DNA of 61,939 nucleotides from a virus, in IMG/VR virus record IMGVR_UViG_3300037225_000134, positions 1 through 61,939 of that record. One strand, written 5' to 3'. Below are positions 10,141 through 61,727 of the stretch, one piece after another. Position 1 is the stretch's first letter. Each line of letters opens with the position of its first letter. The notes under the pieces were generated by a model, which was not told where the DNA came from, made no database searches, and saw only the letters and a list, made by a program, of their open reading frames with translations. Made by a program: the position numbers and the translations under genes.

Positions 10141-12719
10141 AAATCCAGATTTTAGACGTAAGTTACTACACCAATTTTAGGACCAAAGAGCCAATTATTC
10201 AAATTTTTGGGAAAGACTCTGAAGGTAAGTCTCAGGTAATAAATGTTAGTGGCTTTAGGCCATACTTCTATGCGCTACCTATGCATATTGGTCGCGAGGA
10301 TGAGGAAGGCATAATTATCGAGGACGAATATCCTCAGTTAAGTATAAATATAGTAAGTCGATATCTTCCGATGGGATACCAAGAAGGGCCTAGAAAAGTA
10401 TATGTGATAAATTATACTAATCCACAAGATACCAGGGACTTCAGGGAGCGACTAGTTACTGATGGATATGTCAAAGAAGTCTATGAGGCTGATATCCTAT
10501 TTAAGAATAGGTTCATGGTGGATCTAGGGATTAAAGGCTTTGATTGGATTGAAGTACCTGGAGAAAGATGCACTTACCAAGAGATTAAGGTACTAAAAGA
10601 TGAAAGCATTTTGCCATTTCGGGTAATGGGCCTGGATATTGAAACAGAAATACCTGAAACAGGTGGATTCCCGACAGCAGATAAATGTAGTATTATAATT
10701 GCTACGTTGGCATTTGAGCCACTCTTTGAGGGCCGGGCCTCTATGGTACTGGCAGTACATAAAATGAGCGCCACGGACGTATTAGACGGTATGCCAGGCC
10801 AAGTACCACCGTATCTTAGACTCTTCGAGAGGGAGGATCAACTACTAGACTACCTGGAGCAAATAGTTCACGACTACGACCCGGATATTATAGTAGACTA
10901 CAACGGCAATGAGTTTGATATGGGCTATATCACTGATAGGTTAAATATAGTATCACTAAAGAATGATATGGGTCGAAATGGCCGAAGCTGGTTCTGCAGG
11001 GAAAGCCCAGATAAAACCACCTGGCAAATACCGGGCCGGATTCACTTAGATCTATTACCCCTCATCAAGAAGCATGTAAATCCTACTGAGTTTAAAAGCC
11101 TCAAACACCCCCTCAAGGAGTATTCCCTTAAGTATGTAGCGTCACAGCTATTAGAGGTACAAAAGCTGGATATGAAGCCATCAGAGATGCGTAGGGTATG
11201 GGAAAGCGATGAATGGCCCAGGATGATAGAATACGCCAGGCGCGACGCCGAGTTAATGCCACTACTCCTAAACAAGGTGCAACTGCTAGACAAATACATA
11301 GCGTTGGCTCAGGCGGCAGGGTGTCTACTGCAGGATGTCCTTAACGGCGGCCAAAGCACTATGATCGATATGCTCATGATAAGGGAATTCAAGAAGTATG
11401 ATAGACTTATCCCTATGAGGCCGTCTTTCGGGCAACAAAAGGAGCATGAAAACCAGTTAAAGGAGATTCAGAAAACTTTAGATGGTTTAGACCTGGAGGA
11501 ATACTCTGATAGTGACGGCGTGCAATACCAGGGAGGTCTAGTATTACCGCCAGAAGTAGGGCTATGGGAATGGATAGTTATAATGGATTTTGCCAGCCTA
11601 TATCCCTCGATTATGCGTGCGTTTAACTTAAGCCCCGATACCATATACTACGAGAACGGGAAAGCTAAGTTTAGGATGGACTTCCAGGGGATAGTACCTA
11701 AGATCTTAGAAAGGCTATATGAATCCAGAGTTGCCTATAAAAAGGAGATGAAGACCACCACCGATATGCAGCTTAAGGCTCAGTTAAATCTCAAGCAGTA
11801 TGGATGTAAGATACTCCTAAACTCAATTTACGGGTACTTCGGCTTTGATAAAAGTCGACTGTTTGAGATGAGCATTGCCGCCAAGGTGACGGAGGAAGGC
11901 CGGAATGCACTAATTTTAACCAAGAAAACAGTAGAGTCCCATAAAGGGCTTAAAGTAATAGCCGGGGATACCGATAGCGTTTTCATCCATGTAGGCAACG
12001 GTGAAATGAATCACCGGATGTTTGATATCAACAGATTTGTCTATGCCACCAGAATAGGTAAAATAATTCATGATGAAATGGCTGAACTACTTCCAAAACC
12101 TATGAGCCTGGCATTCGAGGCATACGGGAAACGTGGTATACTTCTTGCAAAAAAGAGGTACGCTATTGCAATAACTGAAGACGGTGATAAATATACCATT
12201 AAGCAGCGAGGCATAGAGACTCGCCGGAGAGACTGGTGCAATTATGTGGAAGAGACACTTTCAACAGTTTTTGATACTCTCTTAAATGAGGGTGACATAA
12301 CCAAGGCGGGAATCTATGCAAAAACCCAGATCGAACGGATCGCGAAGCTTCAATATGTCACTGACGACCCGGATCTACTAGCCAAATTGGTGCTAAGTAA
12401 GAAGTACTCTAAACCAGTGGACCAATATAAAGTTAAAACTATGCATATGGAGGCATTGAAGAGAGCACAAGCTAGAGGAGACGAAAGCATTCACCTTGGA
12501 GACCGGATTATGTTCTATGTGGTCGATAAGCATGTTAAGCAATCCACTGCAAAAACGGAAGTAGTAGACTATGTTATAGAACAAAATTTGCCTATCGATA
12601 AGGACTATTACATAAATAAGCAACTAGCTCCACCTTTGGAAAGAATTTTCAAAGTGTTAAACTTCAATATCGCCACGGGTCGATTCAATGGTAAGCAGGT
12701 AACATTTGAAGGGTTCTGA
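10134..12719 (+). CDS. polB: family B DNA polymerase with proofreading exonuclease
   Basis: 861 residues. Exonuclease motifs: ExoI GLDIETE (D168, E170), ExoII NGNEFDMGYI near 258, ExoIII YARRDAEL near 368. Polymerase motifs: A DFASLYPSIM near 484, B KILLNSIYGYFG near 560, C GDTDS near 611. Size and motif order match archaeal/viral replicative PolB enzymes using a nucleic-acid primer; no TPR insertions of protein-primed enzymes were obvious. It is the main replicative polymerase candidate. The first base pairs of the 26-bp palindrome overlap its stop codon. Confidence 0.96.
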   Translation: MVKIQILDVSYYTNFRTKEPIIQIFGKDSEGKSQVINVSGFRPYFYALPMHIGREDEEGIIIEDEYPQLSINIVSRYLPMGYQEGPRKVYVINYTNPQDTRDFRERLVTDGYVKEVYEADILFKNRFMVDLGIKGFDWIEVPGERCTYQEIKVLKDESILPFRVMGLDIETEIPETGGFPTADKCSIIIATLAFEPLFEGRASMVLAVHKMSATDVLDGMPGQVPPYLRLFEREDQLLDYLEQIVHDYDPDIIVDYNGNEFDMGYITDRLNIVSLKNDMGRNGRSWFCRESPDKTTWQIPGRIHLDLLPLIKKHVNPTEFKSLKHPLKEYSLKYVASQLLEVQKLDMKPSEMRRVWESDEWPRMIEYARRDAELMPLLLNKVQLLDKYIALAQAAGCLLQDVLNGGQSTMIDMLMIREFKKYDRLIPMRPSFGQQKEHENQLKEIQKTLDGLDLEEYSDSDGVQYQGGLVLPPEVGLWEWIVIMDFASLYPSIMRAFNLSPDTIYYENGKAKFRMDFQGIVPKILERLYESRVAYKKEMKTTTDMQLKAQLNLKQYGCKILLNSIYGYFGFDKSRLFEMSIAAKVTEEGRNALILTKKTVESHKGLKVIAGDTDSVFIHVGNGEMNHRMFDINRFVYATRIGKIIHDEMAELLPKPMSLAFEAYGKRGILLAKKRYAIAITEDGDKYTIKQRGIETRRRDWCNYVEETLSTVFDTLLNEGDITKAGIYAKTQIERIAKLQYVTDDPDLLAKLVLSKKYSKPVDQYKVKTMHMEALKRAQARGDESIHLGDRIMFYVVDKHVKQSTAKTEVVDYVIEQNLPIDKDYYINKQLAPPLERIFKVLNFNIATGRFNGKQVTFEGF

Positions 12720-12744
12720 CCTTGAGCTACATCTAGCTCAGGGT
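12719..12744. repeat. 26-bp palindrome, copy 1 (candidate protein-binding site)
   Basis: Arms ACCTTGAGCTA and TAGCTCAGGGT around CATC; ten of eleven positions pair. The same palindrome occurs at 49500 and 61135. This copy begins on the last base of the polB stop codon and is otherwise non-coding. Confidence 0.75.
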
Positions 12745-12758
12745 ACCCCTTCCGCAAC

Positions 12759-12768
12759 CTTTAAATAC
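12759..12768 (+). promoter_or_regulatory. archaeal promoter CTTTAAATAC for the non-coding region
   Basis: AACCTTTAAATAC combines a BRE-like and a TATA-like sequence. No gene starts for about 275 bases, so a transcript from here would begin near 12790 and carry a long structured leader or be a non-coding RNA. Confidence 0.6.
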
Positions 12769-12789
12769 TAGTAGCGTATGTAGTACCTT

Positions 12790-13020
12790 GGAAGAGATAA
12801 GCCTACTTCCTGAGGGGCCATAATACTAGCTATGAGTCATCGAATAAGCAACGTAGCTCATACCAGATATTAGAGAGACCGTTAAACCGTGTCCTTTGAT
12901 ATTGTTGGTTCAATGCTTCAAAAGTCCGGCTACTGCCGTAGACGATTGGCTAGGAGAATACCGAATAGGCACCAGGAAGGATTAATATAAGGTGTCCGGT
13001 ATCTCCGATCCTTCCAAATT
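12790..13020 (+). ncRNA. candidate structured non-coding RNA or long leader
   Basis: About 230 bases without an open frame between polB and a zinc-ribbon gene, with its own promoter. Visible helices: GGAAG/CTTCC (about 12790), ATGAG/CTCAT (12831 and 12856), and GGAAGGAT/ATCCTTCC (12976 and 13009), the last a perfect 8-bp pair just ahead of the next ribosome binding site. CACC/GGTG can pair inside or across it. It does not match a family I can name. Confidence 0.45.
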
Positions 13021-13042
13021 ATAAATTTCTGGAGATGAAAAT

Positions 13043-13204
13043 ATGGGCGCAACACATATGAATAGATGGGGATATTGCAAAGACTGCAAGAAAAGCTTCT
13101 TTCTTTACTCTTCTTTAATAAGGGCCTTTGCTAATGGTTGTCCGGCGTGCGGATCAAAGAACATAAAAAGAACGCTATTAACTGATGGATATATGGAGGA
13201 ATGA
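13043..13204 (+). CDS. zinc-ribbon microprotein
   Basis: 53 residues; CKDC (about 12-15) and CPAC (about 36-39) form a classic small zinc ribbon. A TGGAGATGA site precedes the ATG. Stop and next start are adjacent (TGA then ATG). Confidence 0.6.
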   Translation: MGATHMNRWGYCKDCKKSFFLYSSLIRAFANGCPACGSKNIKRTLLTDGYMEE

Positions 13205-13447
13205 ATGACTAAACATTATGATAAATACGAGTTTGCAGTAGCTCGTGGTACTGTGGAAATAGCAAAATACCAAGGTATGCTCGTGGTCGATTTGCTAAAA
13301 TTAGCAATGCCAGCGGAATATGATGCTATGGAAAGATTCTTTGCGGCAACAGGCCATAAGTACACTACTTTTGATGTAGCATATAACTTGGATCGTGCCA
13401 TTAATATGTTTAAATTCAGATTCGTAAGACAATATGAGGAGGAATGA
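13205..13447 (+). CDS. hypothetical protein
   Basis: 80 residues, helical, no cysteines. Preceded by GGAGGA in the end of the upstream gene. Not recognised. Its 3' end encodes the GAGGAGG site of the following gene. Confidence 0.55.
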   Translation: MTKHYDKYEFAVARGTVEIAKYQGMLVVDLLKLAMPAEYDAMERFFAATGHKYTTFDVAYNLDRAINMFKFRFVRQYEEE

Positions 13448-13452
13448 ATAAA

Positions 13453-13686
13453 ATGGGAAATAAAATGATGGCTATATCGTTGCATGAAAGAATCAAGAGA
13501 ACGCTATGCTCGGGATGTGATCTATTCAAGGCTAGCAGATGCAGATGCAAGAATGATAATCTTCTTAACTGCATAGTATCTTTGGCAAATGAGCATATCC
13601 TGCATGAGCAGGCCCAGGCCGCAAAGCTATCTGCAGCCGATGCAATCCATCACAGCATACCGGATACTGATAACTGTGGTGAGTAG
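13453..13686 (+). CDS. small Cys-rich protein
   Basis: 77 residues from the ATG at 13453, well spaced from GAGGAGG (an ATG at 13444 is too close to that site). Motif CSGCDLFKASRCRC around residues 19-32 suggests metal binding, followed by an alanine-rich helix. Confidence 0.5.
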   Translation: MGNKMMAISLHERIKRTLCSGCDLFKASRCRCKNDNLLNCIVSLANEHILHEQAQAAKLSAADAIHHSIPDTDNCGE

Positions 13687-13687
13687 G

Positions 13688-13861: not shown

Positions 13862-13863
13862 GC

Positions 13864-14892: not shown

Positions 14893-14933
14893 AGGGAGAT
14901 GTAAAGCAATACCAGTAAGCCGGAGAGATGTTG

Positions 14934-15604: not shown

Positions 15605-15624
15605 AATAATTGCATTTATAGGGG

Positions 15625-15753
15625 TTGAGGAATAAGTATCCCAATCTGAAAAGAATGCCTTCAATGTGGACAAAGACGTACTATGTTGGAACTGCTGGTA
15701 ATGTCTCCGCAGAGGTAATCAAGCGATATATCGAGGAATGTCAAGGAACATGA
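15625..15753 (+). pseudogene. truncated TnpA (C-terminal fragment) of a second IS605 element
   Basis: The 42 codons before tnpB read as the end of a Y1 transposase: RMPSMWTKTYYVGTAGNVS then a helix with EVIKRYIEE, including the catalytic tyrosine but lacking the HUH histidines. It cannot transpose by itself. It overlaps the tnpB start (ATGA), the usual arrangement in intact elements. Confidence 0.85.
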
Positions 15754-16862
15754 AGACCGCCTACAAGTTCAGGATGTACCCTAATAAGCAGCAAGAAGCC
15801 ATGTTAGATGTAACTCTTGAAACTTGCAGGCACCTCTACAACACTGCTCTGGCGGATCGTAAGAATTGCTATGAACTTGAAGGTATCAGCAGGTCCTATG
15901 AAGATCAGGCAGCTACTTTGACCCTTGAAAAGAAGGAAGGGAAATGGCAAATCTTCTCTCAGGTTTCTCAGGATGTTTTGAAGAGGGTAGACAAAGCCTT
16001 CAAGGCATTCTTCAGGAGAGTCAATGCAGGAGAGAAACCTGGATATCCTCGATTCAAGGGAGACGGCTGGTATAAGTCTTTTACATACCCACAAGTAGGA
16101 TTCAAGGTTGAAGGATCTAAGTTGGTTCTGTCCAAGATCGGCTCCATCAGGATCTTCAAGCATCGAGAAGTCGAAGGCAAAATCAAGACATGCACTATCA
16201 AGAAGGATCTCTTGGGGCACTGGTATGCGATATTAGTATCTGAGATGGAAGATGTTTTTCAGGTCGAACCTAAGGTTGCTATTGGCGTAGATGTTGGCTT
16301 GAAGAATATGGTTGCACTCTCTGACGGCACTGCTATTCAGTATCCCAGGTACTACGTCCAAGCCGAAAAGAAACTTGCAGTAGCCCAAAGAGAGCTTTCC
16401 CGAAAGAAGAAGGGATCAATTAACCGTCAAGTAGCCAAAACCAGAGTCGCTAAGCTCCATCAAAAGATCCAGAACCATCGAGATGAGTTCCTACATCAAG
16501 TATCCAGAAAGCTCGTAGATTCAGCCGATCTAATTGTATTTGAGAACTTGAATATTTCGGGTATGCTCAAGAATCATCACCTCGCAAAGCATATTCAAGA
16601 TCATGCATGGGGCAAACTAATCCAGTTCACTCAAAGCAAAGCTGCAAAGGCTGGCAAAGTGGTAGAACTGGTAGATGCAAGGTACACTTCTCAGAAGTGC
16701 TCCACATGTGGTATAATAGTTCCTAAGACCCTGGCAGATAGAGTTCATTCATGCCCCAACTGTGGGCTGGAGATGGACCGGGATATCAATGCCAGCTTGA
16801 ACATACTCACCCTCGGACTGAGGGGAAGAGCCTATCGAGATACTGCAAAAGCAGGTCAGTGA
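15750..16862 (+). CDS. tnpB: TnpB RNA-guided nuclease (IS605 family), copy 2
   Basis: 370 residues. RuvC residues D181 (IGVDVGLKN), E265 (VFENLN) and D343/D345 (EMDRDINASLN); zinc finger C317-x2-C320 and C335-x2-C338. All are intact although its tnpA is truncated, so this copy is a TnpB that may persist through its nuclease activity or by using TnpA from the other element. It differs from copy 1 throughout, so it is an independent arrival rather than a recent duplication. Confidence 0.92.
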   Translation: MKTAYKFRMYPNKQQEAMLDVTLETCRHLYNTALADRKNCYELEGISRSYEDQAATLTLEKKEGKWQIFSQVSQDVLKRVDKAFKAFFRRVNAGEKPGYPRFKGDGWYKSFTYPQVGFKVEGSKLVLSKIGSIRIFKHREVEGKIKTCTIKKDLLGHWYAILVSEMEDVFQVEPKVAIGVDVGLKNMVALSDGTAIQYPRYYVQAEKKLAVAQRELSRKKKGSINRQVAKTRVAKLHQKIQNHRDEFLHQVSRKLVDSADLIVFENLNISGMLKNHHLAKHIQDHAWGKLIQFTQSKAAKAGKVVELVDARYTSQKCSTCGIIVPKTLADRVHSCPNCGLEMDRDINASLNILTLGLRGRAYRDTAKAGQ

Positions 16863-16871
16863 AGTAGGAAG

Positions 16872-16903
16872 CCTTACCCCTTCAGGGGTAGGGAGGAAGT
16901 CAC
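16872..16903 (+). repeat. right-end hairpin of the second IS605 element
   Basis: CCTTACCCC (16872-16880) pairs with GGGGTAGGG (16885-16893) over nine base pairs with one wobble and a TTCA loop; the element ends AGTCAC like copy 1. Confidence 0.72.
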
Positions 16904-17314: not shown

Positions 17315-17324
17315 GGTGATAGTG

Positions 17325-24164: not shown

Positions 24165-25034
24165 GTGACGAAAATAGAAATAGTTATGTGTCCACCGAAG
24201 TATATGTCTAGTGAAATAAAAAATAATGATTGGATGAAGGCATACCCGGAGGATGAGATAGAAGTTAATATCGATATTGCAATGAAACAATATTGGGATT
24301 TATATACTGCTATTTCTCAGCAAGCTTTTGTGTGGCAACTTCCACCTAAGAAGGGCCTGCAGGATCAAGTCTATGTGGCTAACGTGGCTTGTGTCTTACC
24401 TCACCTCGATAAGACGGCAGTTTTAGCTAACTGGAAGGCAGAAGGCAGGGCCGGGGAAGAAAAGGTCGTAGATGATCTATTAGAGGCCTTAGACTATGAC
24501 TATATTCAGTGTCCCTACGATTTTGAGGGCGAAGCTGAATTGAAGTGGCTCCGAGATAACATTTACGTTGGAGGCTTTGGACAAAGAACATCTAAGGCGG
24601 CTCTTAACTGGATGGAAGATAAATATGATATGAAAATTATTCCTCTCAAAGAATCTGATCCTTATCTCTACCACGTTGATTGTAGCATATTCATGTTAGA
24701 TACTGAGACCGTTCTCTTAAGCACTGAGACTATTGATAAGAAGACAATTGATACAATTGAAAAAGTTGCTACTGTCATACCAGTCTCTAAGAGATTTGCC
24801 TATGATTCTATGTGTAATAGTTTAAGGATCGGCGGAGTGTTTTTCACTAGCGCGGCAGTCAACTTTAACACCGACGCAATAGATCCACAGAACAACGAAG
24901 TAGTTAATATTTGCAGAAAGTATGGCCTGCAGCCGGTTTTCATCGATTTGTCAGAATATGCTAAGTCTGGCGCGGCTCTTAGTTGCATGTGTATGCATCT
25001 TACCTACGACAAAGTAAAACTGAGGTATCCATAA
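24165..25034 (+). CDS. dimethylargininase/arginine-deiminase-like enzyme
   Basis: 289 residues, GTG start behind GGGAGGTGAGT. Matches the guanidine-group-modifying superfamily (DDAH, arginine deiminase, amidinotransferase): DQVYVANVACVLP, FEGEAELKWL with YVGGFGQRT, the His-Asp pair H170-x-D172 in YHVDCSIFML, and the nucleophile region SGAALSCMCMHL with C274 (or C276). It would hydrolyse or transfer arginine-type guanidines; the substrate is unknown. Placement between minor head protein and scaffold is unexpected, and the end overlaps the next gene by one base, so the two are made together. Confidence 0.8.
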   Translation: MTKIEIVMCPPKYMSSEIKNNDWMKAYPEDEIEVNIDIAMKQYWDLYTAISQQAFVWQLPPKKGLQDQVYVANVACVLPHLDKTAVLANWKAEGRAGEEKVVDDLLEALDYDYIQCPYDFEGEAELKWLRDNIYVGGFGQRTSKAALNWMEDKYDMKIIPLKESDPYLYHVDCSIFMLDTETVLLSTETIDKKTIDTIEKVATVIPVSKRFAYDSMCNSLRIGGVFFTSAAVNFNTDAIDPQNNEVVNICRKYGLQPVFIDLSEYAKSGAALSCMCMHLTYDKVKLRYP

Positions 25035-25804
25035 TGCAACTTCTGAAGGACTGGCTTGTATCCCCGGAGATAGCGGAAATCCGAAAGATGTCTATGGCAG
25101 ATATCTTAAAGAAAGGATTTCACCGGGAAAGCCTAGTTCCAATTTTCATCAACAAAGAGGTATTATTTAGCCCAGCCAACGGTGTTATCCTCTACGTTAA
25201 GCATATCAAAAACCGGGAAGAAATCATAAATGTTCATGGAACCCCTTTGAAAATCAAAGACTTGATTAGAACCGATCTATATGATGATGAATTTATAGTA
25301 ATCGGTATATTCATGACAATGTATGATGAGCATATTAATTTTATGCCAAGTTCCGGCTACCTGTCGTTTAAGGATCTTCCAAAGCTGAAGATTGATAATA
25401 TGACTATGACATCTGTAGAGCTGGCACTCATAGAGGCAAATGATCACCCCGATACCGAAGGCATGGAGTACCTCTTTTATAACGAGCGAATGCTTAACAC
25501 GGTTTTTGATAACGAAATAGGACAAGAATATTATATTGTCCAAATAGCCGATGCAGACGTAGGCGCTATAATTCCCTTCAAAGAAAATGATAAATTTATA
25601 GCTCAAGGTTATCCGTTCTCTGCCGTGCGCTTTGGTAGCCAGGTAGATCTAATCATACCCTTGAAGCCCAGGCGGAACTATGAGGTGCTAGTAGGAGATA
25701 AGATAGGCTGGCATGTATCTGCCGTTGCCGATCCATTAGTAAAGATCACTAAATCGGATGCTTCAAGTATACCAGTCGTAAATATGGGATTACCAAAGAG
25801 TTGA
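25034..25804 (+). CDS. phosphatidylserine-decarboxylase-like protein
   Basis: 256 residues. The Psd family pattern is followed end to end: FSPANG (46-50; SPxDG is usual, so Asp is Asn here), IGIFMTMYDEHINFMPSSG with H100, NERMLN ... YYIVQIADADVGAI, and the self-cleavage region AVRFGSQVDLIIPL with G201-S202. Family enzymes self-cleave at Gly-Ser to make a pyruvoyl cofactor and decarboxylate (archaeal or bacterial) phosphatidylserine lipids. The GS pair and His remain; the Asn substitution questions activity. Coupled to the deiminase-like gene. Confidence 0.78.
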   Translation: MQLLKDWLVSPEIAEIRKMSMADILKKGFHRESLVPIFINKEVLFSPANGVILYVKHIKNREEIINVHGTPLKIKDLIRTDLYDDEFIVIGIFMTMYDEHINFMPSSGYLSFKDLPKLKIDNMTMTSVELALIEANDHPDTEGMEYLFYNERMLNTVFDNEIGQEYYIVQIADADVGAIIPFKENDKFIAQGYPFSAVRFGSQVDLIIPLKPRRNYEVLVGDKIGWHVSAVADPLVKITKSDASSIPVVNMGLPKS

Positions 25805-39017: not shown

Positions 39018-39191
39018 GTTTATAATTTGATGCATTCTAATTGTTATCCTTTTTCCATTTGTCATCTGAGTATTTCTTTTAGCATAAAATACATTCCAAT
39101 TTTTATGCGCAAACCACTTTTTTTCAGTAATATCTTTATCAATGTCATCTATCAGGGCTACTTTTCCCTGAGTCAAAACAACTTCAATCAT
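38997..39191 (-). pseudogene. N-terminal fragment of an HNH homing endonuclease
   Basis: 64 residues beginning MIEVVLTQGKVALIDDIDKD then KKWFAHKNWNVFYAKRN and ITIRMHQIINKKTG. This is the standard start of HNH-AP2 endonucleases (ipLTqGk.AlvDd.D), with a GAGGTG site on the - strand. It breaks off at MHxII, before the HNH histidines. The AP2 end of such a protein lies 3.5 kb to the left in the same orientation. Confidence 0.8.
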
Positions 39192-39287: not shown

Positions 39288-42200
39288 GTGTCAGTTAGAA
39301 TCTCCGGGGATACATCAGCTTTAACTTCGTCTCTAGCAGACGCCAAAAGTCAGGCACAATCGGCAGCAAGTGAAATCGAAAAACCGATGACGATGCAAGT
39401 CGATTCCGCTGGTGCGTCAGCCGGAATCGGAGATATAGTAGCAGGTATACTTTCTGCCCAGATCATTACAAAGGCCTTTAATGCGGCAGTACAGGCCGTA
39501 ACGGAATCACTCGCGGCATGGTCATCATTTACATCACAAAACACGGAACTAGCGCAAATGCTCCAGATGAACGCGGACGGAGTAGGCAAAGTAAATGATC
39601 AGTTAAGAACACAATCCGATCTCTCAGGCACGGGTACCGCGACACTGCAATCTTATGCAGAAGCAGCCGGTGCGTTAGGTGCGCATTCAGTAGATGCAGT
39701 TTCCAAAGCTACTGATAGCATGAACACGTATGCAATAGCAACAGGTAGTACCCAAGCGCAAACTATAGCACTGTATACATCATTAGGCAGAGTATACGGA
39801 TACAATTCTGATCAATCAGCGGAATATGGAAATGCCTTAGTAGCACTCACGAATAAGTATGGAATTCAATCTACAGCTATTGCAGATGTAGTAACACAAA
39901 CTGCAAATATGAATAAGATGATGGGTGAAAGCCCGGAGAAATCAGCAGCATTCGCTACCGCAATCATGGCGGCAGGCGGAGATGCGTCCCAAGCAATGAG
40001 TAGTGCATATGCAGATACTCAGGCTATGGCCGTTAAAATGGGTACCTTAGAAGATGCAGCGGATAAAACTAAAACCATAAAAGGCAAAACCTCCAAGGGA
40101 GTTTTAATAACACCAGATCAAATAATTCCTACTGATGCAGCCGAAATAGCAAAAGGAAAATTAGACCAAATACAGCAAGTCTTTGGGGAATCCGGCGCAC
40201 AATTAGCTCAGGATATGGGTAACGATTATCAAGGAACTATGCAAAAAATGGCCGTTGCACTGCATGCTAATACAACGTTATCCACAGCCGATAAATCAGA
40301 ACTTCTAAAAGATCTCGGATTAAGACAGCAAAATGCATCAACCATATTAAAAATGGCTGATAACACGGATACCTATAGCGCAGCCTTAGCAACAGTAAAC
40401 GAAAATAGTAAGGATACTACAGCAACCCAAACACTCTTTAACACGCAAATGGAGGAACTAGGCAACCAAGAAGCCATAGCATCAGCAAGAACAACTGATA
40501 TGGGAAATGGCTTAGGCCAAATACTAGAACCTGCATTAAGAGCCGGAATATCAGCATTTAATGACTTTGCTTGGCAGGTTAAAGCGGTTGAAAGTGCTAT
40601 TGCCGGTGGAGATTGGGGATCAGTAGGAGACATTATAACCAAGGCCCTAGAAGGCGCATTTGATAGTATATCTAAGTTTGATTTTGGCGGTTTAATATCC
40701 GGCATTGAAACCGGTATTAAAGGAGCACTTGAAGCATTAAGCCAGGTTGGAGACTGGATAAGCCAAAAGTTATCTGGTATCGATTGGGGTAAAGTTTGGG
40801 GTGATTTATCTGGTATTGGAGCAGGATTATTATCTGCAATACAGAATGCACTTAACCAAATACCTAACGCAATCAATGCGGCAACCAATCTAAACTTAGG
40901 AGAAAAACTAGGTAATGCACTCTTCGGAGCTATTGACTTTGGAGTTACAACAGCAACAAATGTAGTAAATGCAGTAATAAAAATGCTGCAAGGCGTAGAT
41001 TGGTCTAGTATAGGATCAAGTTATGTTGGATATGCTGTAAAAATGTGGGATGGATTATATACTGCTACGCAAAATTGGATTACAGGTGGAGGACCAACAA
41101 AAATAGGAGATGAAATAGGAACATCTTTAAGCGGTGTACTAAGCGGTCTTGGATGGGTCGCCGGGAAACTCTATGATGCTATTTCTAATTATATATCAGC
41201 TCATGGTGGATTCTGGCAAGTTGTGGAAAACGCATTTGGCACGTTGGCAGATTGGGGTAAGTTAGCAATGGAAATTGCTGAAGGAATAGGCCAAGGCATA
41301 TATGATAAAATACAAATGCCTATCGCGCAAGTACATGACTTTTTCGCTACTACTATGGCATCGGTAGTATCTGGATTCGTCGGTGCGGGCATTGATATGG
41401 GTAATGCAATCGTAAGTGGACTAAACGCAGCCGAGGCAACGATTAAAGGCATTCTTACAGGGTGGTATGATGCAGCCGTAAACGTATATAACTATATCAC
41501 AGGAAATGCAAGTAGCACTGCATCAAATCAAGCAAGCGTAGACGCGGAAACAGAACGAGAATTAAACGCAGCACATACGCAAACTGTAGGAAGTTCTAGC
41601 TCTAATATAGGAACTGCAATAAATAATGCTCAGATAAACGATGCATTATCACAAATGTTAGCCAAAGGTGCACTTGGATCAGTAGGTAAATCATCTAATA
41701 CCGGAATTACTACGCAAACCATAGGATCAGGTAGTACCGGAACATGGAACGAAAATACCCAACAATTTGAATATCCTTCCGGTCAACCGGTGGTATTTGC
41801 TAACGAAAACGCTAATACTAAAGATACAAGTACCTCAGGCAGCACCTGGAACGATAATACCCAACAATTTGAAACACCCTCAGGGAAAGCAGCAACATTC
41901 CCTAATGAAGGAACTAATACACCAGTAGACTCATCAGATAACTTAAGCAAGATTTTAGGAACCTTTTTTGCAGGCACACTTGTGGACACTAAAACCAAAA
42001 ACGACGCAATGACAGCGGCATATACTTCAACTTTAAATGCAGCCGGTGGACTTTGGGCCGACAAACTCAAAGCACAGCAAACTGCAGATACGACTAGCGC
42101 GACTAGTGTAACCACGGCAGCAGAAGCATTTAAAGGCGGCGTCACTGATGCAACTTTAACCTTTAAGCAAGGCGTAGACGGTGCATCAACTGGATTCTTT

Positions 42201-46390: not shown

Positions 46391-46450
46391 TTAAGGTATT
46401 ATAACATCTACCAGGGCTACTTTACCCTGAGTTAAGGAGATTTCTTTCAT
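46391..46450 (-). pseudogene. second N-terminal scar of an HNH homing endonuclease
   Basis: On the - strand ATG 46450 reads MKEISLTQGKVALVDV then stops; the DNA is closely similar to the start of the fragment at 39191 (CAGGGnAAAGTAGCCCTG). It is a remnant of the same gene family between hub and collar-fibre genes. Confidence 0.72.
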
Positions 46451-49372: not shown

Positions 49373-49441
49373 AACCTTTTTTATTATTTTTACAACCTAG
49401 TGGCGGAAGACTTATATCCTCATGGTGCGTATAGGTGGAGT

Positions 49442-49696
49442 ATGGTAACGACGATAGGCGACCTGGCAAAAGAATTTGCGGAACAAATGAACAAAGAGAA
49501 CCATGAGCTACATCTAGCTCAAGGTAAGCATAAAGTACCGGCAAAGGACCGCTACAAGCATCATGCAAAGGGTTTAAATAGAGGAAGCAACGTAGGTAGT
49601 AAGGCCGGAGTATGCGAAGAGTGCCAAGGTGAGGTACGAAGCGACGGCAAAGATAAAGTATGTATTGAATGTGGACTAATCAGAAAAAGGAGATAA
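49442..49696 (+). CDS. zinc-ribbon protein carrying palindrome copy 2
   Basis: 84 residues from ATG 49442 behind AGGTGGAG (a GTG at 49400 is in frame). Helical start, basic middle, C-terminal ribbon CEEC ... CIEC and a KRR end; a DNA-binding regulator is plausible. Codons for HELHLAQG contain the 26-bp palindrome, and the ParB-like protein encodes HELDVAQG at its copy. Confidence 0.55.
   Translation: MVTTIGDLAKEFAEQMNKENHELHLAQGKHKVPAKDRYKHHAKGLNRGSNVGSKAGVCEECQGEVRSDGKDKVCIECGLIRKRR
49500..49525. repeat. 26-bp palindrome, copy 2
   Basis: Arms ACCATGAGCTA and TAGCTCAAGGT around CATC, inside the coding sequence of the zinc-ribbon gene. Core TGAGCTA-CATC-TAGCTCA is identical to copy 1. Confidence 0.75.
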
Positions 49697-53221: not shown

Positions 53222-54049
53222 ATGAGAATTATAGATAACGACGCAATGGTAGGACTCTCTATTAGAGATCTACGAAACATAATGGCGGGAAGAGCTGCAA
53301 CAGAAAACGCAAATTTAGCCAATAACCCGGAAACCAAGCACAAGCAAATAGCGGACCTGGTATCTAAGGACTTCTATCTTAAGATGCTTCCTGAAGAGCT
53401 GGCACAGCTTCATATCGATGGTAGCCTACACATTCACGACCTGGAGTACTTCGGTACCCGGCCATTTTGCCGAAGCCTAGATATTAGGCCTACTCTGATG
53501 TATGGGTTTATGCCCGACGGAGGGCATGGAGCGATTGATGCAGGCCCGGCAATGCACCCTGACGTAGCAATACTTCAGGCGGCTAAAGCTCTTGCTATGA
53601 GCCAAACACAACACGCCGGAGGGCAAGGCCTACTGTATGGGCTTGTATTCCTGAGCCCCTTCATGGCAGAGCTGGATTATAAAGGAATTAAACAGATGAT
53701 GCAGCTTTTGATGTATGAATTGAATCAAATGTATATATCAAGAGGCGGGCAAACCATATTCAGCTCAATTAATATATCTCCTGGAGTACCTAAGATACTT
53801 GAGGATGTACCGGTAGTCTGGAAGGGGATTCTATGGGACGGTGAGACTCAACCCTATGGAAAGATGGATAAGGGGATCTACTCGGATTACATCAGGTATC
53901 CTAAGAAGACCTACGGCGACTTTGAAAAAGAAGTAAGGCTTATGTTTAAGGCCTTGATGGAAATATCACTACAGGGCGATATTCGAAACAAACCTTACCC
54001 CTTTCCCAAGTTGGAAGTAAGTATCGAGAAAAAGTTCTTGGAGGAATAA
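53222..54049 (+). CDS. nrdD: anaerobic ribonucleotide reductase NrdD, N-terminal part (split gene)
   Basis: 275 residues covering the first half of the class III barrel: NPETKHKQIADLVSKDFYLKML, GSLHIHDLEYFGTRPFC, ALAMSQTQHAGGQG and RGGQTIFSSIN, ending FPKLEVSIEKKFLEE. There is no ATP-cone before it, so allosteric activity control is probably absent. The stop is followed at once by an HNH gene and then the second half in the same frame as this one. The two parts are expected to assemble into one enzyme reducing NTPs to dNTPs without oxygen. Confidence 0.93.
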   Translation: MRIIDNDAMVGLSIRDLRNIMAGRAATENANLANNPETKHKQIADLVSKDFYLKMLPEELAQLHIDGSLHIHDLEYFGTRPFCRSLDIRPTLMYGFMPDGGHGAIDAGPAMHPDVAILQAAKALAMSQTQHAGGQGLLYGLVFLSPFMAELDYKGIKQMMQLLMYELNQMYISRGGQTIFSSINISPGVPKILEDVPVVWKGILWDGETQPYGKMDKGIYSDYIRYPKKTYGDFEKEVRLMFKALMEISLQGDIRNKPYPFPKLEVSIEKKFLEE

Positions 54050-54051
54050 TC

Positions 54052-54453
54052 ATGGATAAAACAGAATACAATAAGAAGTATAGATTAGATCATATAACTT
54101 ATTTTCATGAATACGATAAAGAACGATATCTTACAAACAAAGATGATATATTAGTTAATAAGAAAGAAGATAGAGAAAAATATCCAGATAAATATAAAAA
54201 ACGAGATAAACTAAATTATAGAAAACTTCGTATTCAAGTTATTATGGCATTAGGCGAAAAATGTGTAGATTGTAGAACTATGGATATTAGAGTATTAGAC
54301 GCACACCATATCAATGGCGGAGGAAGCCAACAATTCAAAACATTTGGAAATTATAAAAAGTATTACAAATATATTATAGATAACCCAACAGAATTTTTAT
54401 TATTATGTGCAAATTGTCATAGAATAAGGCATTATGGTGATTTAGATGGATGA
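54052..54453 (+). CDS. HNH homing endonuclease inserted in nrdD
   Basis: 133 residues. Very Lys/Tyr-rich basic N-terminus (about 1-60) then CVDC, DAHHINGGG and LLCANCHRIRHYG, a zinc-stabilised HNH. AT-rich compared with flanks. Starts two bases after the nrdD N-part stop and overlaps the C-part start by eight bases, so it supplies the ribosome traffic for the second half. Confidence 0.92.
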   Translation: MDKTEYNKKYRLDHITYFHEYDKERYLTNKDDILVNKKEDREKYPDKYKKRDKLNYRKLRIQVIMALGEKCVDCRTMDIRVLDAHHINGGGSQQFKTFGNYKKYYKYIIDNPTEFLLLCANCHRIRHYGDLDG

Positions 54454-55633
54454 AGACGTACCTACATATGAAGAATTATATAAAATGGCATTTGAAGTTG
54501 CTGCGAAATTTGGAACAATTTACTTCGATAATTTACTTATTGATGGTAAAAACAAAGAAAATTCTGTTTCGTGTACCCAATGCTGCGCATATAGCTTCAA
54601 ATCTGATGATAAAACAGATAACAAATTTAACAAAAAACTAAACTTTGTAGGTGGTGAGCATTTTAAGCTCGGAGGTATGCAGGTAGTAAGTATCAACCTT
54701 CCAAGGTGCGCATACCAGGCTAACGGCGATAAAAAGATACTCATAGCACGGATCTATGACATGATGGATAAGGCGGTGGAGATCTTTAAGATAAAGCAAA
54801 AATTGATCATGGATCAGGCGGCAAATGGAAGCTTATCTTACATCAATCAGATTACTCCAAAAGGGGTAAGATTCACAGATTTCAAGTCTCTAGTATTTGA
54901 AATGGGTATTGTAGGCCTAAATGAGATGGTGGAGCATTTCACTTGTGAGCAGCTACATGAAAGTGAAAACTCGCGAGACCTGGCAAAAAGCATCCTGGCA
55001 CAAATGAGTGAATATTGCAAAATGGCCTCGGATACCTATAATATGAAAATTGTATTGGCCCGGACTCCGGCAGAGACAACGGCTCAGAGGTTCGCAGTTT
55101 GTGACATGATGGATGATAGGTACAAAGGATTCGCGGAGCTTACGGTAAAGGGAGACAAGTACACGGCCAAGGGCCTAATAGCCAAGGGAAAAACAAGAGA
55201 CCTGCCGGTATTTTACAGTAATGGTATATCACCAAGCATAGACGCACCTATAAATCTATCCAAAAAAATAAAAATAGAAAGCGAGCTTTGGCCTTATTTA
55301 GATGGCGGATGCATCTCACATATTTGGCTTGGAGAGTCAAACCCTTCAGCCGAAAGTCTTATGAATTTCGCTCTAAGAATCGCACAGAAAACCAATATCG
55401 GGTACTTTGCTTTCAGTAAGAATTATTCACAATGTGAAATATGCCATCATATCACCGATGGAATAGCCAAAAAATGCGAAAAATGCGGAGGCGAAAAGCT
55501 TATCATCTTTGCACGTATAACAGGATACTTGAGTGCAGCGGGCATGATGGAGCACGGAATATTTAAACCACGATGGAACGCTGCAAAAGCTACAGAACTG
55601 TTTATGAGGCACGATGATGGAAAAGATATGTAA
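54446..55633 (+). CDS. nrdD: anaerobic ribonucleotide reductase NrdD, C-terminal part with glycyl radical
   Basis: 395 residues, ATG 54446 behind GGTGAT within the HNH gene. It starts DEDVPTYEELYKMAFEVAAKFGTIYFDNL, exactly continuing NrdD. VSCTQCCAYS (C43-C47) carries active-site cysteine candidates; CEIC ... CEKCG binds zinc; the glycyl radical is G360 in ARITGYLS. With the N-part the total is 670 residues, normal for NrdD. Activated by NrdG downstream. Confidence 0.93.
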   Translation: MDEDVPTYEELYKMAFEVAAKFGTIYFDNLLIDGKNKENSVSCTQCCAYSFKSDDKTDNKFNKKLNFVGGEHFKLGGMQVVSINLPRCAYQANGDKKILIARIYDMMDKAVEIFKIKQKLIMDQAANGSLSYINQITPKGVRFTDFKSLVFEMGIVGLNEMVEHFTCEQLHESENSRDLAKSILAQMSEYCKMASDTYNMKIVLARTPAETTAQRFAVCDMMDDRYKGFAELTVKGDKYTAKGLIAKGKTRDLPVFYSNGISPSIDAPINLSKKIKIESELWPYLDGGCISHIWLGESNPSAESLMNFALRIAQKTNIGYFAFSKNYSQCEICHHITDGIAKKCEKCGGEKLIIFARITGYLSAAGMMEHGIFKPRWNAAKATELFMRHDDGKDM

Positions 55634-56428: not shown

Positions 56429-56429
56429 A

Positions 56430-57413: not shown

Positions 57414-57415
57414 AA

Positions 57416-57694: not shown

Positions 57695-57750
57695 GGGTAT
57701 TAGCAGTCACTTAGAGAAGCTGGTAAGAGATTGGACAGGAGACGAACCAT

Positions 57751-57906: not shown

Positions 57907-57927
57907 GTATGAAAAGGAGCTGGAAAT

Positions 57928-58341: not shown

Positions 58342-58583
58342 GGAAGCCGGAGACAGATAAAATGCCTGGAATGCATGGACCGATGTATAACCCGCGACGC
58401 GACACGCGACTAAATTCATATTGCCAAAGTTGCAAGTATGGAGGAGTATGCGCACTATGCGCACCTATTTGCAACGAAAATGCAAAATCTAACCCGATGA
58501 AAACACCGTCCTTGGCTTGGATGATTACTACGACTCTGGTAATCGCAGTTTTAGTTGTGATTATCGGAGGGAAAGTTATTTAA
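58338..58583 (+). CDS. tail-anchored membrane protein with Cys-rich head
   Basis: 81 residues. CQSCKYGGVCALCAPIC around 29-45, then a single C-terminal helix (AWMITTTLVIAVLVVIIGG). The Cys cluster would face the cytoplasm. Partner of the preceding Cys-rich protein by coupling. Function unknown. Confidence 0.55.
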   Translation: MRKPETDKMPGMHGPMYNPRRDTRLNSYCQSCKYGGVCALCAPICNENAKSNPMKTPSLAWMITTTLVIAVLVVIIGGKVI

Positions 58584-58877
58584 ACTCATCGAGCCTATAT
58601 GGGTATTGTGAGGAAACAGAAACCCCCTCATCAGAGAGATAAGGCGCAAGAAACAGCCTAACGACCTGGCGACCTGACTCTGACACCAGACACCGGAAAA
58701 GTCTACAAAGAAAGCTAGACTCCGACTCCAGTCCCTTCATAATCCGTCGCCCAAAAAGATGCTTACGGCTACGAGGAAACAATCTCCTTAAGCTAGGTAA
58801 ATCAGACGGCGGCGGAAATAATAATGGTTTGTGCGCCAACACAAGCCGCATAGACCAAATACGCAAGCGCAAGCATC
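58584..58877 (+). other. gene-free, hairpin-rich region
   Basis: No credible gene. Short hairpins are visible: TGAGG/CCTCA (about 58609), AGGC/GCCT (58645), CTGG/CCAG (58663). Composition is richer in C and G than the genes around it. It leads directly into the tRNA-like segment. Confidence 0.4.
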
Positions 58878-58985
58878 GCACTCACTTATAACTCAATTGG
58901 TAGATCTCAGTAAGGCGGCGGTTCGACTCCGTGAGTCCGGTAGAGCCTGAGGAGCGTGTAGGTTCGAGTCCTACTAAGTGAGTGC
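58878..58985 (+). ncRNA. tRNA-like element with one 5' half and two 3' halves
   Basis: GCACTCACTTA (58878-58888) pairs perfectly over 11 bp with TAAGTGAGTGC (58975-58985), which follows a perfect T arm GTAGG-TTCGAGT-CCTAC (58958-58974). A D-arm-like ACTCAATTGGTAGA follows the 5' strand. Inside lies a second T arm CGG-TTCGACT-CCG (58919-58931) followed by GTGAGT, which can pair with the same ACTCAC. No normal anticodon arm is found. A decayed, recombined or mimic tRNA. Confidence 0.5.
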
Positions 58986-58998
58986 TAATTATAAACCC

Positions 58999-59100
58999 GG
59001 CCCGTGCCATTAGAGCATGAATCCTTAGTATTCAGAGTCTCGCTGTGGCCCTTCTGGCTCTACACTCTATGCAGACTGATATCCTTTGAAGTGAGGCCGG
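58999..59100 (+). ncRNA. second tRNA-like or structured RNA candidate
   Basis: CCGGCC near 58997 and GGCCGG at 59095-59100 can pair and enclose TGC/GCA and a perfect TGAAT/ATTCA arm with a 7-base loop CCTTAGT (about 59028-59044). The loop lacks U33 and no T arm is seen, so it is not a standard tRNA. Precedes a small gene with an AAGGTGA site. Confidence 0.35.
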
Positions 59101-59121
59101 TAATAATAGAAGGTGATTATC

Positions 59122-59298
59122 ATGGTATTAGCTCTACGCTACAAACTATCATCAGAGGAATTCCATGCTGAAATATTAGCTAAAATGGCAGAAAAGTATC
59201 CAAAGCTTAATATTCAAACTAAAAAGCCTTCGGGCATTTCTCTTTTAAAAGGCGGCGGAATGATAATAATACCAGTAGCTTCCGAGTTCGTTCAATAA
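59122..59298 (+). CDS. small hypothetical protein
   Basis: 58 residues from ATG 59122 behind AAGGTGATT. Mixed alpha/beta with KGGGMIIIPVASEF end. Not recognised. Confidence 0.5.
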   Translation: MVLALRYKLSSEEFHAEILAKMAEKYPKLNIQTKKPSGISLLKGGGMIIIPVASEFVQ

Positions 59299-59334
59299 GG
59301 GCGGCGGCTATTGGTAATAATAATGAGCCATCTA

Positions 59335-59397
59335 CATAGAAAGTCAAAGTGCCCACTTTCACTTTCTTAGAACCTGGCTCTAATAATTCTTTTTTAA
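59335..59397 (+). terminator. long hairpin terminator
   Basis: GAGCC (59335-59339) pairs with GGCTC (59376-59380) around a nearly perfect 13-bp stem GAAAGTCAAAGTG/CACTTTCACTTTC with one mismatch; TTCTTTTTT follows. Strong terminator. Confidence 0.78.
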
Positions 59398-59416
59398 TAA
59401 TAGGGTGAATTATATT

Positions 59417-59563
59417 ATGCCGGAATCTGAATTAATCAAGAAGGCGATCATTACAAATATTGATCCATTAACCAAAGGCCCACTTGATAGGCATGGTGTA
59501 TCTGAGATGATGGTAAACCAGATCGCAAACACAATAAGACACGCACCACAAAAAACGTGGTAA
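59417..59563 (+). CDS. small hypothetical protein
   Basis: 48 residues behind AGGGTGAAT. Helical (SEMMVNQIANTIRHA). Not recognised. Confidence 0.45.
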   Translation: MPESELIKKAIITNIDPLTKGPLDRHGVSEMMVNQIANTIRHAPQKTW

Positions 59564-59595
59564 TATTATATTTATTTAGTAATAGGTGGTATATC

Positions 59596-60186
59596 ATGGT
59601 ATCTAAGATATGTGGAACCTGCAAGAGGTTCATAGATCCTCCAGAGACATCTAAAGGGAGGGCTGACGTTGGAGCATGTCCCGATTTTGGATTAGTAAAT
59701 GAAAAAGATTGGTGCCAAGATTGGGAGCCTAAAGAGGTAGAATCAAATGCGATGGACCTGGCGAACACTGCTACTCATGAAGCAGGACATGCTGCGATGG
59801 TGTTAGAAGCCGAGGAATCAGGCTTAATTCCTGATATAGAACTAACAGAAGTTTTCATAACTGGAGTACCTGGAGTTACTTATGGTAGCACGCACTGGAC
59901 ATTTGCACGAAATCAAGCCGATGCTATTCAAATGGCAAAAATATCGTTCGCCGGAATGCTAGCCGTAAAGGTATTACTTCCTGAAGCAGATTGGAAAAGA
60001 GGTATCCGGTTGGATGTAGACCAAATTAGAGAGTTCATTGATATCGAGGATGAAGAGAAAGTTATTGCTGAAGTGGAAGAATACTTTAGGCAGGAAGATA
60101 ATGCTAACAGAGTTAGACGTATCGCTAAACTCCTCATAGATCGACGGAGTTTGAATGCCAAAGAAGTTAGAAAAATGGTGAGGTGA
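59596..60186 (+). CDS. zinc metalloprotease, M41 (FtsH peptidase)-like, with N-terminal zinc motif
   Basis: 196 residues from ATG 59596 behind AGGTGG. The N-terminus has CGTC ... C ... C (C6, C9, C28, C40), a possible zinc site. The catalytic helix ATHEAGHAAMVLE has HEAGH at 61-65; a later helix FAGMLAVKVLLPEA and an acidic-rich end follow the M41 layout. No AAA ATPase part. It may degrade host proteins or mature viral ones. Confidence 0.65.
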   Translation: MVSKICGTCKRFIDPPETSKGRADVGACPDFGLVNEKDWCQDWEPKEVESNAMDLANTATHEAGHAAMVLEAEESGLIPDIELTEVFITGVPGVTYGSTHWTFARNQADAIQMAKISFAGMLAVKVLLPEADWKRGIRLDVDQIREFIDIEDEEKVIAEVEEYFRQEDNANRVRRIAKLLIDRRSLNAKEVRKMVR

Positions 60187-60192
60187 AAAACG

Positions 60193-60363
60193 GTGATCAG
60201 CATCTCGATTTTAGGTGGACACCCGAAAGACACTAAAAACAACCATCATAAGGTCAGAGAGTGGGCACCTGTTATCGATTTAAGAGGCAGAAGCCCAAGA
60301 GTATCGATAGAAGACAAGCAAGCAATTAAAAAATTACTGAAGGTGATAGTAAAATGTGCATAG
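60193..60363 (+). CDS. small basic protein
   Basis: 56 residues, GTG start 6-10 bases after AGGTGAAAAA. His/Lys/Arg-rich (GGHPKDTKNNHHKVREW). Overlaps the next gene by ten bases. Not recognised. Confidence 0.45.
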   Translation: MISISILGGHPKDTKNNHHKVREWAPVIDLRGRSPRVSIEDKQAIKKLLKVIVKCA

Positions 60364-60497
60364 GTATAGCGATTTTAAGAGTCATTCAACACGTTAACGA
60401 AATCGATGAGCAGAGAGCCACAATAACCAAAGAGCATCCTACATTTGATGCTACCTTTGATGACGGCTCAGTAGTGCCGGTTACTATCCAGCATTAA
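60354..60497 (+). CDS. small hypothetical protein
   Basis: 47 residues behind AAGGTGATAGT. Helix then beta hairpin (TFDATFDDGSVVPVTIQH). Not recognised. Followed by a hairpin-rich control region. Confidence 0.45.
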   Translation: MCIGIAILRVIQHVNEIDEQRATITKEHPTFDATFDDGSVVPVTIQH

Positions 60498-60533
60498 TTA
60501 TATTTTTCTAATAATGATTGGTAATAAGTTTAG

Positions 60534-60617
60534 GTGGATGCTCTTAAGGATGCACTGAAGAGCCGACGACAAGCGAAAACCGCGAAGAGGCTCGCTAATC
60601 CACAGATTATTTTTTCT
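60534..60617 (+). promoter_or_regulatory. candidate attenuator/riboswitch with alternative hairpins
   Basis: GCTCTT (60540-60545) pairs with AAGAGC (60558-60563); GAGCC (60560-60564) instead pairs with GGCTC (60589-60593). The two share bases so they exclude each other. An outer stem GTGGAT/ATCCAC (60534-60539, 60598-60603) is followed by a T-run. This is the logic of a switchable terminator. Confidence 0.55.
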
Positions 60618-60635
60618 TAATTATAGGTGATTTAT

Positions 60636-60698
60636 ATGAGTGATTATGCAGGCGGATACCTGGCAAAGCTGGTATCGAAATATGTGAAATTGGAATAG
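60636..60698 (+). CDS. 20-residue peptide, possible leader
   Basis: ATG behind TAGGTGATTT, reading MSDYAGGYLAKLVSKYVKLE. It follows the candidate attenuator and ends just before a promoter. Amphipathic; may be a leader peptide or chance frame. Confidence 0.35.
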   Translation: MSDYAGGYLAKLVSKYVKLE

Positions 60699-60700
60699 GC

Positions 60701-60708
60701 TTAAATAG
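60701..60708 (+). promoter_or_regulatory. TATA box TTAAATAG of parB
   Basis: GGCTTAAATAGTATGAGG, same type as at 7587. The parB ATG lies about 36 bases downstream with GGTGAGG between. Confidence 0.65.
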
Positions 60709-60743
60709 TATGAGGGCTGTAGTAAAAGGTGAGGTACAAAGAC

Positions 60744-61727
60744 ATGGCAGATTTTGGAAAAGCTGAAAATATTAAACCTGAGTTCGAGGCTTTAATTTCT
60801 CCATTAGCCCCGGAGGAGTATAGACTATTAACGGAAAGCATGTTAAAATACGGCCAAAGAGAACCTATTCTTACATGGCATGGATTCATAATCGATGGAC
60901 ACCACAGAAAAAAAATAGCTTCGGAGCATACTGATAAAATCACTCAACTTAAATACGAAGAATATGCACCTCTTATAAATGCATCAGATACCGAAGTTAA
61001 GATCTGGATGATTAAAAACCAGCTAGGAAGGCGGAATCTAACGCTAGACCAAAAGGTAATGAGGTATGCAGGAGAGTTAATAAAACTGGAATCGGAAGCA
61101 GCGGATGAAAGAAAGAAAGCTGGAGTAAAGATTGACCATGAGCTAGATGTAGCTCAGGGTCACAGAGCACCGGAAACCAGAGATATAGTAGCAAGCGTAT
61201 TTGGAGTAGGGCATAGTAAGATTGATGAGTGCAAACACGTTACAGAGGATGCACCTGCCTTAATACCAGATGTATTATCAGGCAAAACACCTCTCCATAC
61301 AGCGGCAAATATCGCCAAGAGGGTAAAGGATATAAAAGACCCTGAAGAAAAAGCTCTTAAAGTTCAAGAATATTCAACACCTGCAGGTAAGGCGCAGTTG
61401 AGAAAAGACAACAAAGAAGCAAAGGAAGCGAGAGATGCAGACAGCGCACGGAGAAGGCAAGCAGGAATAGACAACGCGGAAGTATCTGAGGTTAAAGATA
61501 AAAAGCAGGTAAGACTTGAGGCCCCGGAAGTAGAGAAAACGGAAGCAGAGCAGGAAAAAGACGACGCATTAGATGATCAAATCAACGCATTTATCACAAT
61601 CATGATACAAGACGGCTATGATATTAGAGACCTAGAATTTAGGTTTAATAAGATAATCAGAGCCGAGATAATTGACCAACAGAAGGCGGAAGCCATACCA
61701 AAGCTAAACGATGATGGCAGTAGTTAG
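60744..61727 (+). CDS. parB: ParB-like nuclease-domain protein
   Basis: 327 residues from ATG 60744 (a GTG at 60729 is in frame). N-terminal ParB/Srx-fold: SPLAPEEYRLLTESM, GQREPILTW and GFIIDGHHRKKIAS (the CTP/DNA-associated box), then MIKNQLGRRNLTLDQKVM. A helix-turn-helix-like middle (ASVFGVGHSKIDECKHV) and a long charged coiled C-terminus follow. It may act in partition of an episomal form, or in transcription or packaging. Its own gene carries palindrome copy 3. No parA was found here. Confidence 0.8.
   Translation: MADFGKAENIKPEFEALISPLAPEEYRLLTESMLKYGQREPILTWHGFIIDGHHRKKIASEHTDKITQLKYEEYAPLINASDTEVKIWMIKNQLGRRNLTLDQKVMRYAGELIKLESEAADERKKAGVKIDHELDVAQGHRAPETRDIVASVFGVGHSKIDECKHVTEDAPALIPDVLSGKTPLHTAANIAKRVKDIKDPEEKALKVQEYSTPAGKAQLRKDNKEAKEARDADSARRRQAGIDNAEVSEVKDKKQVRLEAPEVEKTEAEQEKDDALDDQINAFITIMIQDGYDIRDLEFRFNKIIRAEIIDQQKAEAIPKLNDDGSS
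61135..61160. repeat. 26-bp palindrome, copy 3
   Basis: Arms ACCATGAGCTA and TAGCTCAGGGT around GATG (the loop is the reverse complement of CATC, i.e. the site is inverted relative to the others). It lies in parB codons for HELDVAQG. Confidence 0.75.

Follow-up and report, generated by a model that had tools for sequence, protein, structure and literature searches.

Why should a virus carry one and the same 26-bp palindrome at three places in its genome, one of them inside the gene for a ParB-like protein? The element lies at 12719–12744 (copy 1), 49500–49525 (copy 2) and 61135–61160 (copy 3) of the IMG/VR virus record IMGVR_UViG_3300037225_000134, analysed over its whole length of 61,939 bases (hereafter the window). 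Our answer is that the virus's own ParB-like protein binds DNA specifically at this palindrome and that copy 3 is an intragenic self-site, a reading to which we give a probability of roughly 0.88. Because the palindromes of relatives share this intragenic position and covary with the recognition helix of the encoded protein, we regard copy 3 as very probably a self-site within the gene, with copies 1 and 2 as extra sites; binding itself we infer from the fixed position and the covariation. A site for the ParB-like protein had been the leading idea of an earlier reading of this DNA (the original prediction), and the same-position palindromes and helix covariation now lend it strong support at the level of sequence.

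The dyad extends to about 30 bp (TGACCn-TGAGCTACATCTAGCTCA-nGGTCA), and its 18-mer core TGAGCTACATCTAGCTCA is identical at 12723–12740 and 49504–49521 and present as the reverse complement at 61139–61156. The pattern TGAGCTANNNNTAGCTCA matched exactly at these three places, as originally described, and no further copy was found with up to one mismatch in the rest of the 61,939-base record, where the backward control pattern gave none. With up to three mismatches the pattern occurs at six places (3.2 expected in shuffles); since the three non-exact places each have three mismatches, only the three exact copies are meaningful. The 17-mers of the core are the only 17-mers found at three places in the record, three Markov shuffles contained no repeated 18-mer, and a de novo search of the window for repeated palindromes returned the three-copy element as its only family. 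Against an extended 28-position consensus, copy 3 scores 28, copy 1 26 and copy 2 25, the next-best place in the record (18/28) falling within the range of the best places of 10 shuffles (17–19). Variation between the copies inside their 26 bp is confined to positions 4 and 23, symmetric to each other as expected of a dyad-symmetric site, and to two central positions, the latter because copy 3 is turned round. AGCT is not avoided in the window (observed/expected 1.05).

None of the three copies is assigned a strand. Copy 1 (12717–12746 with its extension) starts, in its 26-bp form, on the last base of the stop codon of the family B DNA polymerase gene polB (10134–12719, + strand; Pfam DNA_pol_B, E 3.6e-79), outside the polB reading frame and 15 bp before a TATA-like TTTAAATA (12760–12767; read as TATA by eye). 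Copy 2 is in frame within a small zinc-ribbon open reading frame (ORF; 49400–49696, + strand; CEEC...CIEC, named by eye, with no Pfam match at 0.01), about 80 bp after another TATA-like element (by eye). Copy 3 (61133–61162 with its extension) reads TGACCATGAGCTAGATGTAGCTCAGGGTCA and is in frame in the ParB-like ORF, where it encodes residues 136–144 (DHELDVAQG), which lie in the linker joining the N domain to the helix-turn-helix (HTH); this role as code for an interdomain linker goes beyond what the original prediction had noted. Codon shuffles gave p values of 0.005 and 0.010 for this copy. Stops, as read from the sequence, close every frame of the palindrome but one, so the peptide HEL-x-x-AQG common to two unrelated genes is a forced by-product, confirming the earlier view that DNA imposes it.

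Two further strains, designated L004 (97–99.9% identity by segment) and L005 (99.7%), represent the same virus. L004 retains copy 1 although the DNA past 12763 differs there, and L005 retains copy 2 with one A-to-G change, at position 23. The segment 12763–13194, just after copy 1 and its TATA-like stretch, comprises about 430 bp with a tiny zinc-ribbon ORF, and about 135 bp of other DNA occupies its place in L004.

The ParB-like protein (332 amino acids; 60729–61727, + strand) consists of a ParB/Srx-type N domain, the linker, an HTH and a long helical C-terminus. It matched phrog_2159 (E 2.5e-6) and also phrog_620, with no Pfam match at 0.01. Its N domain has GxxR and NQxxRR-like boxes, and G57, R60, W93 and R102 are invariant among 48 aligned sequences. 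An AlphaFold2 model built with 48 sequences (mean pLDDT 84, pTM 0.68) shows a ParB-like N domain, linker residues 131–150 at lower confidence (74–79), predicted HTH helices at residues 150–158 and 162–174 and the long helical C-terminus. Foldseek matched this model to pNOB8-like ParB-N (5k5d), Spo0J (1vz0), Noc and KorB, the best match being 5k5d (TM 0.45 by query, 0.57 by target). With both the ParB/Srx-type N domain and the central HTH predicted, the protein can be classed as ParB-fold on sequence and model. Its recognition helix, including the start of the helix (61209–61250, + strand; residues 161–174, GHSKIDECKHVTED), carries G161 and S163, the two most strongly covarying positions. The palindrome differs in sequence from the canonical 16-bp parS. 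No ParA was detected among the 47 distinct window ORFs scanned against Pfam, which are part of the ORFs of a possibly incomplete record, and the N-terminus (DFGKAEN) does not match, by eye, the motif [LFI]G[KR]G[LFI] that a passage of PMC12704722 defines as ParA-binding.

It was relatives of this protein that pointed to the explanation. We assembled 167 ParB-like genes, comprising 80 loci from genome_contigs (the best 80 of 398), 80 from viral_contigs (the best 80 of 562), six from phage records and the window itself; the proportions given here hold for these gene sets only. In 151 of them 85 codons from the NQxxRR motif could be analysed (16 were dropped because the motif was missing or the sequence too short, and L010 was not entered), and the best 24-mer was accepted as a palindrome if at least 10 of 12 pairs were complementary. 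Such a palindrome is present in 61 of the 151 genes, always in the linker before the HTH, 107–167 nt after the NQxxRR codon, and in a common reading frame in 58 of the 61. When codons were shuffled with the protein and its codons kept, 40 of the 151 genes gave p ≤ 0.01 (1.5 expected); after removal of identical linkers, 54 of 136 genes retained a palindrome, 52 in frame and 36 at p ≤ 0.01. Among 450 control segments from other ORFs of the same loci, drawn at random from a longer list, at least 10 pairs were found in five and p ≤ 0.011 in two (100 shuffles each). The window palindrome lies at offset 119 (frame 2) with 10/12 pairs, and six relatives reach 12/12, with dyads that run almost to the centre. 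The letters vary by member (GACCATGTGCCAAATTTGGCACATGGTC in L052, AACCTTTTGGAGAATTCTCCAAAAAGTA in the Methanoculleus virus, GACCATGAGCTAGATGTAGCTCAGGGTC in the window) on a common half-site layout, with T at −9 (91% of half-sites), G/T at −6, C at −5 (86%) and A at −2 (96%). The original prediction had set its idea against absence of the element from related viruses that keep parB: the exact letters are indeed absent there, and a palindrome stands at the same place in many of them, not all. The highest share of palindromes is seen in genes of a subclass whose proteins have an AK motif following the N domain (47/82 vs 7/54 outside it). Methyltransferase domains were matched in some relatives (N6_N4_Mtase in 4/21, MT-A70 in 2/21).

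Repeated palindromes of any kind were found in five of the 80 ParB-like loci that were the best of 398, none within the parB-like gene; this search missed single-copy self-sites because it looked for repeats, and they were found by the scan inside parB-like genes. Likewise, looking de novo for palindromes that recur within one genome gave nothing comparable in Methanoculleus virus L4768, Dulem virus 33 and vir524, nor in the 50 of 54 kb of PV036453 and the 50 of 60 kb of vir525 that were covered. Bajarodcaudo virus 4 (L042, ~10.3–16.8 kb) has an unrelated AT-rich family, AAGCACTTA-n6-TAAGTGCTT, in four copies (one with a mismatch) placed in gaps between annotated genes, away from the parB-like gene. 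An inverted palindrome pair (7760–7779 and 8020–8039) with a 4-bp asymmetric centre lies about 2 kb upstream of the ParB-like match in L083, a Clostridia genome.

Palindrome bases covary with the recognition helix. Half-site bases were compared with the first four helix residues in 69 non-redundant members with at least 9/12 pairs (from 79, after removal of duplicates and of L106, which has no HTH match); 66 of these served for the column test, the tree and the code, L076, L139 and L160 having been removed for a doubtful HTH or palindrome. As a control for common descent, bases −2 to −5 were set against 153 protein columns. The highest-ranking of the 153 columns were helix residue 1, paired with base −4 (Z 18.6), and helix residue 3, paired with base −3 (Z 17.6); helix residue 2 with base −5 was third (Z 11.4), and the N domain reached up to 9.1 at low information. 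The tree, for which the helix columns were left out, has about 10 changes at residue 1 (11.3 with shuffled labels) and about 12 at residue 3 (18.1 with shuffled labels). G at residue 1 goes with a base other than A at −4 in 12/12 members and S with A in 44/54, and D at residue 3 goes with G at −3 in 44/45 (the remaining one mixed) and other residues with bases other than G in 18/21. Near neighbours switch both together, as in L213 (helix GHDT, half-site GCTGA) vs L177 (SHDT, GCAGA) and in L052 (SHGS, GCCAA) vs L068 (SHDT, GCAGA). The window obeys the rule set by the others, its helix GHSK being paired with the half-site GCTAGA and both halves of the site carrying T at −4 and A at −3.

Several observations weigh against a self-site of this kind. 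Ninety of the 151 genes, L011–L015 included, fall below 10/12 pairs, and by a crude rule the window protein is outside the AK-motif subclass. The window site also breaks the family's A at −2. Ten S-type members lack A at −4 and three non-D members have G at −3; on account of these exceptions the code does not assign a single base to each residue, and neighbouring residues matter too. Extra copies (at least 20/28) are rare: among 79 loci, most of them fragments of up to 21 kb that limit such counts, only the window (two) and L047 (one, 20/28) have any, and none was found at this score in the complete 37-kb Methanoculleus virus. Weaker extra sites, by the inner core, number 11 (3.2 expected), the window and the doubtful L076 accounting for three each. 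Finally, classical ParABS partition is not supported, because no ParA was found among the ORFs scanned.

A mobile palindromic insert, the alternative named by the original prediction, is now unlikely. Rickettsia palindromic elements are repeated mobile palindromes that lie in frame within coding genes, and a similar element could have inserted in frame twice and once at a gene end; the three copies are near-identical and in unrelated places, copy 3 falls in a variable protein linker and IS200/IS605-type genes share the genome. Yet such elements are marked by numerous copies, scattered over unrelated sites of the host or of relatives, and these were not encountered in genome_contigs (no match to a 24-position pattern), in IMG/VR, where the core was found in this virus only, or in 392 genomes of the Methanoperedens phylum. 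None of these 392 genomes has the exact core; 13 match, all with two mismatches (counts by eye; the true host may differ), and a backward control was commoner, matching more than 50 of the same genomes (by eye). Moreover, the relatives' palindromes differ in sequence and share position and mostly frame, they covary with the HTH, and the variable positions of the window copies form a symmetric pair; in position, frame and covariation the window palindrome thus differs from the Rickettsia elements in favour of a binding site.

It is similarly improbable that the palindrome serves another dimeric regulator, of virus or host, and lies inside parB by chance. Copy 1 precedes one TATA-like element and copy 2 follows another, as noted above, and further DNA-binding proteins have not been exhaustively excluded; such a regulator leaves unexplained both the same-position palindromes in relatives and the covariation with the ParB-like recognition helix. 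For the zinc-ribbon protein, earlier named as a second possible binder, no support was obtained.

An RNA hairpin acting in transcripts (as a terminator, or in processing or translation control) is very improbable, for although any of the copies could fold into a stem and a 4-nt loop and copy 1 lies at a gene end, the loop of copy 3 is reverse-complemented with all three ORFs on the + strand, the relatives' dyads nearly reach the centre (12/12 pairs in six) and no Rfam match was found at gathering scores. Equally hard to credit is protein selection on the peptide HELxxAQG with the palindrome incidental, since, despite similar linker peptides in some relatives (NLPQG, NLAHG), the family's linker peptides are otherwise unalike, synonymous codon shuffles rarely regenerate the palindromes and copy 1 is outside the polB reading frame.

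If the palindrome is the binding site of the ParB-like protein, a dimer would place one HTH on each half-site, with helix residues 1 and 3 reading the bases four and three steps from the dyad. The protein could then act at three places in the genome, namely its own gene, the end of polB and the zinc-ribbon gene, thereby marking and acting on the DNA molecule that encodes it. Most likely the site would work like a parS or an operator, for loading and regulation; less surely, copy 3 may serve autorepression or as a roadblock in the gene of the protein, and the other two copies regulation or the assembly of a nucleoprotein complex. The TATA-like elements near copies 1 and 2 would suit regulation, yet such elements are common in the DNA of the window. 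Judged from these genes, the protein and its target appear to move and evolve jointly. A broader proposal, for which we see about as much reason to believe as to doubt, is that this widespread and mobile ParB-like family consists of single-gene 'protein plus address' cassettes, in which the site lies in the linker code and coevolves with the helix; DNA carrying the gene would therefore carry the site, and the protein would load, slide and act in cis on its own replicon (by marking self DNA, silencing or partition), in some members with a fused DNA methyltransferase as part of this action. The window virus would have added two sites.

Like the ParB–parS and Noc–NBS systems of bacteria, the proposed arrangement comprises a palindromic site for the HTH of a ParB-fold protein: passages of PMC4442127 place parS-359 within the parB gene of B. 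subtilis, and passages of PMC7383237 attribute the base preference of ParB and Noc to residues of the HTH region. Unlike those systems, the dyads here span 24–30 bp rather than 16, one fixed intragenic site recurs in ParB-like genes that are divergent and come from viruses as well as bacterial genomes, no ParA was found among the scanned window ORFs and some family members have methyltransferase domains. Comparable proteins are the orphan ParB-CTPase-fold proteins of phages and archaea, without ParA and in some cases fused to methyltransferases, that a 2025 survey describes (PMC12704722); a search of its main text by term gave no palindromes, inverted repeats, parS-like or intragenic sites, and the passages considered name no cognate sites for such a family. 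The window model is closest in structure to the pNOB8-like archaeal ParB-N (5k5d), unlike which its N domain is joined to a Spo0J/KorB-like HTH, with no ParA detected. The ParB-like regulators VirB, with sites upstream of promoters (PMC10770331), and KorB of RK2, with long-range silencing (PMC11790492), likewise appear from the openings of their abstracts to use a ParB fold for gene regulation from specific sites; unlike here, a site in the own gene is absent from those openings. Among the papers listed in literature searches on such sites, no title or abstract opening describes a family-wide self-site, and we call the self-site family a variation on the ParB–parS theme that is apparently undescribed.

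The host of the window virus is likely to be a methanogenic archaeon, because the only two matches of its portal protein among phage records are the methanogen viruses vir525 and vir524, and because those of the ParB-like protein include Methanoculleus virus L4768/Blf4 alongside gut phages. The portal protein also has distant matches in four of the 392 genomes of the Methanoperedens phylum. In viral_contigs, the ParB-like protein has no close relatives, and the zinc-ribbon and polB proteins have matches from the same virus only. Besides the family B polymerase, the window encodes primase- and terminase-like proteins, a split anaerobic ribonucleotide reductase and IS200/IS605-type genes. The latter include a pair at 1687–3202 (a Y1 transposase and a TnpB-like gene) and a TnpB-type (OrfB_IS605) element at 15620–16903 that is absent at this place in L004, where its flanks are adjacent. 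The anaerobic ribonucleotide reductase NrdD (53222–55633) is split into two ORFs, between which a small, weakly HNH endonuclease-like ORF (54052–54453) resembles an intron- or homing-type insertion. An ORF within the structural genes (24983–25804) matches phosphatidylserine decarboxylase (Pfam E 2.1e-18), which is unexpected for a tailed virus. A 46-bp repeat (78%) occurs at 39146–39191 and 46405–46450, ahead of ORFs starting at 39288 and 46493, and a perfect 12-bp palindrome, GAGTCGCGACTC, closes the record (61928–61939), which may mark either a real terminus or the end of an assembly.

For orphan ParB-fold proteins on viruses and mobile elements, binding sites seem to be little known. Should the self-site rule be true, the site of a member could be read from its own gene, so that the functions of these proteins would be testable at once. 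The family also offers a natural data set on protein–DNA co-evolution, in which two helix positions switch about 10 and about 12 times, and clearly exemplifies a protein linker shaped by a DNA-level constraint. An intragenic site, finally, would not easily be parted from its gene by recombination.

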